From positions 1 to 21,531 of the IMG/VR virus record IMGVR_UViG_3300018080_000092: DNA of 21,531 nucleotides, one strand, 5' to 3'. The position numbers were made by a program, and so were the translations under genes. This document shows positions 3,082-21,531 of this stretch, piece by piece (position 1 is the first letter of the stretch; every line of letters starts with the position of its first letter). The notes beneath the pieces are model-generated. The model saw nothing but the letters and a program-made list of their open reading frames with translations. It made no database searches and had not been told where the DNA came from. Source of the stretch: a virus.

Positions 3082-3336
3082 ATGGTTTACTTAATTCACT
3101 TTAACGTACCATACAAGCACGCAAGGCATTATTTGGGCAGTTGTGATGACTTGCAAGCTCGATTGGCGCGCCACAAGGCAGGCAATGGAGCCCGTCTAAT
3201 GGAAGTAGTAAAGAATGCTGGCATAACCTGGCAATTGGCCAGAACGTGGGAAGGAGGAAAGGGTAAAGAGCGGGAATTGAAGAGACAAAAAAATTCACCT
3301 CGACTTTGCCCGATTTGCAATGGAAGAACTCATTAG
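3082..3336 (+). CDS. Small GIY-YIG-like nuclease
   Basis: The 84-residue protein begins VYLIHF and continues HYLGSCDDLQARLARH, matching the strand-Tyr, Tyr-x-Gly and Arg elements of the GIY-YIG fold (Y3, Y17, R27). ERELKRQKN near residues 63-71 supplies the expected Glu and Asn. A CPIC motif near the C terminus (76-79) could bind metal. Small single-domain GIY-YIG proteins cut or nick DNA, but the substrate here is unknown. The ATG at 3082 is six bases after a perfect AGGAGG. It is the first gene of the plus-strand cassette and overlaps the repressor gene by 17 bases. Confidence 0.75.
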   Translation: MVYLIHFNVPYKHARHYLGSCDDLQARLARHKAGNGARLMEVVKNAGITWQLARTWEGGKGKERELKRQKNSPRLCPICNGRTH

Positions 3337-3553
3337 ACTGCTGAAACAACGACAGGGCTCTCAATCGCTGAACGAATTCGCGGCCGCGATTGGTATCTGG
3401 CCGTCCACATTATCGCGCTACTACTCTGGCCAGCGCAAGCCAAGCAGAGGGAGCTTAGAGAAAATGGTACGCTATTTCACTCAACGCGGAGACTTTCGCG
3501 CTGTGAGCGTGCTCACGGCTTATGCCTTTGGAGGGATGTATGGCGACAAATGA
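3320..3553 (+). CDS. XRE-type helix-turn-helix repressor candidate
   Basis: The 77-residue product contains a Cro/C1-type helix-turn-helix at about residues 14-48 (LNEFAAAIGIWPSTLSRYYS, then GQRKPSRGSLEKM). It has no C-terminal cleavage or peptidase domain, so it would not respond to SOS by autocleavage. Its start lies inside the end of the GIY-YIG gene without a clear ribosome binding site, which suggests translational coupling. The two palindromes at 3002-3051 upstream of its own operon are its probable binding sites, giving autoregulation and control of the opposite early promoter. Confidence 0.82.
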   Translation: MEELIRLLKQRQGSQSLNEFAAAIGIWPSTLSRYYSGQRKPSRGSLEKMVRYFTQRGDFRAVSVLTAYAFGGMYGDK

Positions 3554-20206: not shown

Positions 20207-20403
20207 TAAGAAATCCGTTTCTCGCGCTTCTCAGCCGCAAAATCGAGCCAGGCCCTGAGCATAGCTTGCCATTTCGCTGGACGAACGCGCTTGACGTACT
20301 CCGAGTAAGTGCCGAACCCGCCGTGGTCAGGGAAGTCATCAGCCCCGGCCATCCTGGAAACGATCCCGCGATTATTGACCTTAAGCCACTCTTTGAAATT
20401 CAT
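20206..20403 (-). CDS. 65-residue hypothetical protein
   Basis: The helical product (MNFKEWLKVNNRGIVSRMAG...) has one FPDHGGFGTYSEYVKRV segment and a basic end (AEKREKRIS). Its opening FxEWL and length recall YozE/SAM-like small domains, but the match is weak and not relied on. The start lies 4 bases inside the preceding zinc-ribbon gene, and the stop is at the hairpin before the small terminase gene. Role unknown; position suggests a packaging-region accessory. Confidence 0.65.
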   Translation of the reverse strand: MNFKEWLKVNNRGIVSRMAGADDFPDHGGFGTYSEYVKRVRPAKWQAMLRAWLDFAAEKREKRIS

Positions 20404-20606
20404 AGCTCAAATCCTGGGAGCACTTGCGCGCCCTGAGCTATCATTTTCATCGATTCGGGAATTCCTGCAGTATAACCACATCGCGGCCAATTGGGGCAGC
20501 CTAAAAACTGGTGGCCAGTGTGCCGATTTTCCTTGACAATCAATTTTCTGGAGGGGATGCACTCAGGGCAATTCAAGTTAACTTCTGAATTAATGACGAA
20601 TTTCAT
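20400..20606 (-). CDS. Topoisomerase-type zinc-ribbon protein
   Basis: The 68-residue product carries CPECIPSRKLIVKENRHTGH followed by QFLGCPNWPRCGY. This is the CPxC...G.F.GC..xPxC pattern of the C-terminal zinc ribbons of bacterial topoisomerase I (Pfam PF01396), here as a stand-alone protein. Such ribbons bind single-stranded DNA. It is the first gene after the iteron-like array, with AAGGT before the ATG at 20606, so it may act at the origin or in packaging. Confident on the fold, not on the role. Confidence 0.75.
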   Translation of the reverse strand: MKFVINSEVNLNCPECIPSRKLIVKENRHTGHQFLGCPNWPRCGYTAGIPESMKMIAQGAQVLPGFEL

Positions 20607-20654
20607 TTTTCTGACCTTTCAACGTGATTAAGCACATATTCCTTTCGCTCCTTC

Positions 20655-20800
20655 CTTGCCAACCTACCAACCTTGCCAACCTATTTCCCCATGATATAGA
20701 ATCCCCCCTTTATACCTATGTAGGTTTTAGGTTGGCAAGGTTGGCAAGTTGGCAAATCACGCCTAAAATGCTTGCCAACCTGTTGCCAACCTTGCCAACT
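20655..20800. repeat. Iteron-like repeat array, origin candidate
   Basis: Eight copies of CTTGCCAACCT or close variants lie in three clusters: two on the plus strand (20655-20665, 20672-20682), three on the minus strand (20729-20739, 20738-20748, 20747-20756) and three on the plus strand (20771-20781, 20782-20792, 20791-20800). Units within a cluster repeat every 9-17 bp. The middle cluster can pair over 17 bp with either outer one (20667-20683 with 20728-20744, or 20731-20747 with 20783-20799). An A/T-containing spacer (20684-20727) separates the first two clusters. Placement next to the helicase gene supports an origin or a regulatory array. Confidence 0.7.
20709..20738 (-). promoter_or_regulatory. 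Promoter candidate for the morphogenesis unit, inside the iteron array
   Basis: The minus strand has -35 TTGCCA (20738-20733) within an iteron and -10 TATAAA (20714-20709) after 18 bp, each a five-of-six match. Transcription would start near 20702 and reach the zinc-ribbon gene at 20606 after about 95 bases that include the first iteron cluster. A protein bound to the iterons would compete with RNA polymerase. Confidence 0.5.
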
Positions 20801-21531
20801 AAAAGAGGTTTTTCGACCTGATTCCAACATAACCGCGTAGTTGATCGCCATCTAGTCGCCTACTTCTGGCCAACCTCCACTTCTTGAGTATGGCCGCCAA
20901 TTGCATTTGGTGGCCGCGTCTACTCGATCCGTGCAATCCATTATTCTCCAGTGTATCGAGTAGGTGGCTTGTTGGCGTGAACCACGTTTCTTGGGCCGGG
21001 TCAATTTCGTAGAACTGGCGCAAGATGTCTTCAATTGGGTCTTCGATCTCAAATTGCGCGTTTATGTTCTGAGCCAGGGCCACTTGCTCTTTTCGGAGCT
21101 TGCCCAGGTCGCCGTGTGAGAATTGCCGAAAGGCCTCAGCCCAAACCTGGTTTACGTCCACTTTCTTGGAATACGACCACATTATACTCTTTAGGTCGAG
21201 AATGAGAAAGCGTCGGTTTCCGGTACTATCGTTCAGAAATCCGTACTCGTTGTTGATCGTTCCTATAAACGAGGCCAGTGCCGGTTTGACAATGTCGTTT
21301 CGCCCATATGGTTTGCGCACTGTCACCACTTCCTGAGTCAGAAAGAACTTAAGCGCCTCCCTATCGGCGCGTCGCATCGTATTACCTAGCTCTCCGACTT
21401 CCCATATCCACTTGCGGATCAATTGGAGTTGATGGTCCTTGTTATCGGGCTCTATGTTCCCTTCGACGAACCTGTCCGGCAAGGGGGAACATAGCCATCG
21501 CGCAAAGAAAGATTTGCCGATATTTTGCGGC
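20799..21531 (-). CDS. VirE/VapE-family P-loop helicase, C-terminal part (continues from 773-1)
   Basis: This is the remainder of the helicase whose start is at 773, ending with TAG at 20801-20799. Bases 21409-21531 duplicate 1-123, so the P-loop at residues 217-224 is only just outside or at the edge of this copy. Visible here are the Walker B-like segment WEVGEL (residues 260-265), ADREALKFFLTQ, the PYGRN segment, the sensor-like GTINNEYGFL and the arginine motif GNRRF (321-325). Together these are the classic order of VirE-domain ATPases. The last 90 residues form a separate helical domain, possibly DNA-binding (SSRRGHQMQLAAILKKWRLA). The stop lies at the edge of the iteron array. Confidence 0.88.
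   Translation of the reverse strand, partial: PQNIGKSFFARWLCSPLPDRFVEGNIEPDNKDHQLQLIRKWIWEVGELGNTMRRADREALKFFLTQEVVTVRKPYGRNDIVKPALASFIGTINNEYGFLNDSTGNRRFLILDLKSIMWSYSKKVDVNQVWAEAFRQFSHGDLGKLRKEQVALAQNINAQFEIEDPIEDILRQFYEIDPAQETWFTPTSHLLDTLENNGLHGSSRRGHQMQLAAILKKWRLARSRRLDGDQLRGYVGIRSKNLF
21409..21531. repeat. Terminal direct repeat, right copy
   Basis: These bases are an exact copy of 1-123. They should be removed when the molecule is circularised, leaving 21,408 bp. Confidence 0.93.

Follow-up and report, generated by a model that had tools for sequence, protein, structure and literature searches.

Replication modules of related elements

The rep-ori modules of staphylococcal pathogenicity islands (SaPIs) and PICIs, such as those of SaPIbov1, SaPI1 and EcCICFT073, are the closest described counterparts of the locus presented here. 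PICI origins always consist of two iteron sets placed around an AT-rich region immediately 3' of rep, and for members of the SaPI/PICI group rep and ori have been shown to drive autonomous plasmid replication (PMC6092414). The SaPI Rep protein acts through its C-terminal domain on iterons that directly follow the gene encoding it, and the C-terminal domain of SCCmec Cch2 binds short direct repeats located just past the end of the Cch2 gene (PMC7581432). PriRep1 is described as a SaPI self-loading helicase by Qiao et al. 2022, as cited in PMC10516667.

A comparable arrangement is annotated in Streptococcus phage Sfi21, which served as a positive control. In the Sfi21 record, a noncoding region of 302 bp that directly follows the 3' end of a D5/DUF5906 helicase gene is labeled "origin of replication, phage inhibitory sequence", and two inverted TTAGTTAC pairs within this region flank an AT-rich stretch. 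In phage P4, a satellite with separate ori and crr sites, the primase-helicase alpha ends in a winged-helix origin-binding domain (1KA8). Iteron plasmids with Rep_3-type initiators (RK2, P1, F) resemble the present locus in their tandem short direct repeats, element-coded initiator and AT-rich neighbor; the Rep of such plasmids is not a helicase and loads host DnaB.

Here, a dense repeat array from a viral contig is interpreted as a SaPI/PICI-type rep-ori module that is recognized by the phage's own VapE-type helicase and carried by a full tailed phage, with a probability of roughly 0.83. Judged from the sequence, the repeats are very probably the spot where the phage begins to copy its DNA, marked for the adjoining helicase. 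Both the initiator and this kind of rep-ori are already known. What is new is the breadth of the layout beside phage VapE helicases and a third repeat cluster that touches the helicase stop codon.

Genome organization and the repeat array

The window, the whole stretch of 21,531 nucleotides that was analyzed, has identical ends over 123 bp (positions 1-123 equal 21409-21531), and the genome is therefore a circle of 21,408 bp (about 21.4 kb). It encodes terminase, major head, scaffold, minor head, tape-measure and tail proteins as well as an Erf-type annealing protein. With its own virion gene set, the element is therefore a tailed phage and not a satellite, and it falls outside the definition of a PICI as a helper-dependent island without a full virion gene set. 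Because the contig is circular and the gene is split at its ends, the first-pass annotation missed the neighboring helicase: the gene abutting the array encodes a VapE-type helicase of 460 amino acids divided over both ends of the window. The join is crossed by an independent contig of this virus, L055/L061 (99.9-100% identical), on which the gene is intact and specifies exactly the same 460-residue protein. The features of the locus are as follows.

20400..20606, minus strand: zinc-ribbon protein, 68 aa, Zn_ribbon_Top1-like (30 bits, below the curated 32); next gene downstream
20656..20799: iteron array, putative replication origin; eight exact TTGCCAAC copies and one degenerate unit, with chance control
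20656..20680, plus strand: left cluster, distal to the helicase gene; units 20656-20663 and 20673-20680
20681..20730: AT-richer spacer, candidate melting region between opposed clusters
20731..20755, minus strand: central cluster; units 20731-20738, 20740-20747 and 20748-20755
20772..20799, plus strand: right (third) cluster, reaching the helicase stop codon; units 20772-20779, 20783-20790 and 20792-20799
20799..21531, minus strand: VapE-type helicase gene, 3' part (stop TAG 20799-20801; PF05272, E 1.8e-30), encoding the last part of the VapE domain and, as protein residues ~366-460, the C-terminal winged helix
1..773, minus strand: VapE-type helicase gene, 5' part, with its ATG at 773 and running on over the circular join

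All eight exact copies of TTGCCAAC lie within 20656-20799, in the order two plus, three minus and three plus that had been reported for them, and no other exact copy occurs anywhere in the window. A degenerate ninth unit, CTACCAAC, sits at 20664-20671 between both units of the left cluster. The density is far above chance, as had also been proposed, since 300 first-order Markov replicates of the window produced no 8-mer with more than three copies per 148 bp. Apart from base 20799, the array is contained in a 192-bp noncoding gap (20607-20798); an earlier description of the array as noncoding save for its end is borne out, the sole coding base being 20799, the last base of the minus-strand TAG stop codon of the helicase. 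The AACCT ends of the left and central units point into the 50-bp spacer, so that these two clusters are opposed. The AT content of the spacer is 62-65%, compared with 47% in the locus, which is only a moderate enrichment. GC skew tracks gene orientation throughout the window and therefore gives no independent origin signal, neither for nor against.

The adjoining helicase

Both halves of the helicase, when scanned separately, match the VapE-like domain PF05272. A profile of the helicase and 16 relatives found a single relative in the PDB, 7pds, "Similar to D. nodosus vapE" (E 2.1e-30). The predicted model of the helicase (mean pLDDT 84.7) matches the same entry ("PriRep1 with dsDNA") with a Foldseek E of 1e-16 and a Z of 25.1 over residues 82-460, followed by phage NrS-1 polymerase, the SaPI5 primase-helicase and D5-type helicases. 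PriRep1 (7PDS) is the SaPI helicase of solved structure. As would be expected of a SaPI/PICI initiator, the protein is homologous to the SaPI Rep SF3/AAA+ helicase. No Pfam match to a Rep_3-type initiator was found among the 14 window sequences scanned, which are a subset of the ORFs. The first-pass conclusion that the initiator would be new was wrong: the protein encoded next to the array shares homology with PriRep1, the initiator helicase of SaPIs, and the initiator is not new.

Folded alone, the C-terminal 95 residues form a winged helix (pLDDT 81) whose best matches are RFX DNA-binding domains (Z 8.5 and 8.2; 1dp7, Z 8.2). The tail of ASFV PrimPol (Z 8.1) and the origin-binding domain of phage P4, 1ka8 (Z 6.2, 3.0 A over 75 residues), are matched as well. 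With Z values that are modest for a small domain, the predicted fold suggests a role in origin binding. The TTGCC/GGCAA of the unit resembles RFX X-box half-sites, which is a lead only, because other relatives use other units. Distances between iteron units and distances between C-terminal domains are not correlated among 12 or 19 relatives (Mantel r -0.02, p 0.57), and covariation therefore does not identify the reader of the units.

By analogy with the rep-ori of staphylococcal pathogenicity islands, the VapE-type helicase of the phage would be a self-loading initiator. The winged-helix C-terminal domains of its subunits would bind the TTGCCAACCT units, and two helicase rings may assemble at the opposed central and left clusters on either side of the 50-bp spacer. 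Melting of the AT-richer spacer would then allow both rings to start bidirectional unwinding. The third cluster, by the helicase stop codon, could offer extra binding sites for loading or copy control.

Comparison with described systems

The likeness to the SaPI/PICI modules is threefold: the helicase is a homologous VapE-type protein with a C-terminal domain, the putative origin is immediately 3' of the helicase gene, ending at base 20799, and iteron sets surround an AT-rich stretch, here the central and left clusters opposed over their spacer. The present array differs in being carried by a full tailed phage, which has terminase, head and tail genes of its own, rather than by a satellite, in having three clusters rather than two, the third being extra, and in its own unit sequence. 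SCCmec Cch2 shares the C-terminal domain and the short repeats immediately downstream of its own gene but has only three AAGTG repeats, resides in a chromosomal cassette and is a Primase_Cterm/D5_N-type helicase. The model of the C-terminal domain of the window helicase aligns with the winged-helix domain that ends P4 alpha, although the P4 unit sequence is unlike that of the window. Sfi21 likewise places noncoding repeats directly 3' of the helicase gene, with inverted pairs around an AT-rich stretch, but its helicase matches Pox_D5/DUF5906 and not PF05272, its unit is TTAGTTAC and its clusters number two.

Recurrence of the array beside helicase genes

Relatives were collected protein-first: loci were fetched by helicase sequence alone, and the 500 bp on the 3' and 5' sides were searched for the commonest 8-mer, with four or more copies within 500 bp counted as an array. 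By this measure, 53 of 84 IMG/VR loci have an array on the 3' side as compared with 1 of 77 on the 5' side. Dereplication of the viral loci left the asymmetry in place (37/56 versus 1/52, p 1e-13), and an independent set of loci from bacterial genomes displays it as well (21/41 versus 0/40, p 2e-8). The sole 5' case (L061) is the window's own virus and is produced by its pentapeptide-repeat gene; L055/L061 was not counted as independent evidence of conservation, though L061 is among the 56 viral representatives. About one third of the viral relatives and one half of the genome relatives have no array by this criterion, and therefore the layout is common but not universal. The conservation check suggested in the first-pass annotation is thereby positive, and its replication-origin reading is well supported, in that arrays of the same logic stand directly 3' of VapE-type helicases in most of the relatives examined.

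The unit sequence differs between lineages while the layout, consisting of tandem units every 8-10 bp and opposed clusters, persists. The TTGCCAACCT unit occurs in the window phage, L062 and L160. Other relatives use GTGCGACCT, CGTCAACCT, ATGCAACCT, TGTCCAACCT, CATCCAACCT or TGTTCCAACCT, and some units are unrelated (e.g. GTATCCA and TGACACC). In each of the 17 cases measured, the A+T content of the largest gap in the array exceeds that of the locus; this gap lies between convergent units in 12 of the 17, between divergent units by the assigned orientation in four and between same-strand units in one. The three-cluster order is repeated in L074 with a unit of its own. L160, a locus in an Anaerolineales genome that was found by protein alone, is the closest bacterial relative (51% identity) and has TTGCCAACCTTACCAACCTTGCCAACCT ... 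AGGTTGGCAAGGTTGGCAA right after the helicase stop codon, with the TTGCCAACCT unit in opposed clusters. Since nearly all of the best-matching genome loci are from Chloroflexota, a host in this phylum is suggested for the window phage on the basis of these sequence matches.

Arrays 3' of the helicase gene were also found in named phages, namely Marinobacter phage PS3, Enterococcus phiFL4A, S. aureus phiSa2wa_st1, Hamiltonella APSE-1 and Paenibacillus Ollie. A weak array signal was obtained for Stiles and the satellite Javan56. No array was seen 3' of the helicase in Mica, CKB-S1, EMB1 and RcSalem; in Mica and CKB-S1, overlapping genes occupy its place.

A motif-first search gave a consistent picture. 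Scanning for the pattern TTGCCAACCTTGCCAAC returned 58 loci, most of them without a further array. All records with dense mixed-orientation arrays (L006, L008/L043, L012, L020, L036, L039, L051 and L055) carry PF05272, which for L008 was read through its duplicate L043/L062. In L034, the array follows a DUF5906 helicase gene. The array of L012 lies at the contig end and would be 5' of the VapE gene if that contig is circular, making it a possible positional exception. Many of the pattern-only matches are a single 17-mer in an otherwise unit-free contig and look like chance, and in L010, L017, L022 and L030 most same-strand units are at multiples of 9, as coding repeats would be.

Alternative explanations

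The first-pass annotation had also proposed an RNA/DNA switch. In such a switch, the central cluster would pair with either the left or the right one, in the transcript or as a cruciform in DNA, and would thereby control expression between the helicase gene and the zinc-ribbon/morphogenesis genes. The perfect 17-bp pairing of the center with either flank is real (20731-20747 with 20783-20799 on the right; 20728-20744 with 20667-20683 on the left, extending to 28 nt at 93%). Only one of the two pairings can form at a time, and the minus-strand RNA, with arms of 17-28 nt, has a very stable predicted fold (-72 kcal/mol, z -7.2). However, the inverted complementarity arises because one unit occurs on both strands, which already implies pairing, and a stable RNA fold is expected of an array that holds inverted copies of one unit; the stems are by-products of unit placement. 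In the 19 relatives compared, the length of the longest perfect inverted repeat is anywhere between 9 and 19 bp. Tandem units on the same strand, spaced 8-10 bp apart, are kept even though they have no use for pairing, and the gene after the array is a Prim-Pol, a VRR-NUC or a zinc ribbon rather than a conserved partner. The array has no match to a known RNA family in Rfam, and no terminator-like site was found there. The switch is consequently unsupported and very improbable. An operator array serving a regulator, either the 77-aa HTH protein encoded at 3320-3553 or the helicase as an autorepressor, is an unlikely explanation. The window does encode this XRE-type HTH protein, and four relatives have autoregulatory-like two-unit sites just before the start of the PrimPol-VapE gene.

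L001, 7976-7992: two-unit TTGCCAACCTTGCCAAC site between the upstream gene and the PrimPol-VapE start
L002, 9364-9380: two-unit TTGCCAACCTTGCCAAC site, same position
L038, 1642-1658: two-unit TTGCCAACCTTGCCAAC site, same position
L046, 3056-3072: two-unit TTGCCAACCTTGCCAAC site, same position

Also in favor of an operator, the array is overlapped by two promoter-like matches, but they are on the plus strand whereas the neighboring genes are on the minus strand. Against it, the window array comes after the helicase gene and not before it, and eight units in opposed clusters are more than an ordinary operator contains. Across phages, moreover, arrays follow VapE genes with differing next genes. 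The same positional argument bears on a partition (centromere-like) or packaging site, an exceedingly improbable reading even though centromere sites can also be short repeat arrays and the terminase gene is ~0.9 kb downstream of the array in the direction of transcription: it is the helicase gene, and not terminase or partition genes, that arrays follow, and the next genes in relatives are Prim-Pol or VRR-NUC. No ParB-type protein was found among the window proteins scanned, again a subset of the ORFs.

Implications

The layout was once described as special to parasitic "satellite" islands. Here it is found beside many ordinary phage and prophage helicase genes: it is common among IMG/VR viral contigs and named phages and at helicase loci of Chloroflexota and other bacterial genomes. 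An odd repeat thereby becomes a testable replication origin for a phage apparently without one, and a simple rule follows for predicting origins in many phages and prophages, namely to search the DNA just past the 3' end of the VapE/D5-type helicase gene. The finding also bears on the source of the replication modules of satellites and on the way in which co-infecting elements avoid confusing their origins. As a tentative extension, VapE origins might follow a grammar in which each unit joins a conserved half-site (AACCT/GACCT in this branch) to a variable tag of 3-4 nt. Such units would recur at intervals of 8-9 bp and form opposed clusters past the 3' end of the gene, and a third cluster, placed at the stop codon, would serve as a switch for loading or copy control. 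The tag could separate the origins of co-resident phages (cf. L066/L068).

Additional observations

L066 and L068 (IMG/VR 2751185414_000001 and _000002) appear from their record names to come from one isolate genome. Their helicases share 81% ATPase identity, yet the iteron is CGTCAACCT in one and ATGCAACCT in the other, a difference that would be expected if replicons residing together have to avoid cross-talk.

In L006 (10665-10890), L039 (2807-3052) and L139 (downstream of 5122), the spacers between opposed clusters contain alternating purine-pyrimidine runs (GCGCGCGTGCG...), which are Z-DNA-prone and replace plain AT-rich DNA.

Two other genes of the window may be mentioned. The pentapeptide-repeat protein gene at 924-1586 (Pfam E 9e-44) contains 11 copies of ACCTGCGA, the only other dense repeat in the window, and its product may possibly act as a DNA mimic, a putative role. 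A 130-aa protein encoded at 3522-3914 matches PHROG 503 (E 1e-33), a family of unknown function, and by eye resembles Vsr/DUF559-type nucleases.
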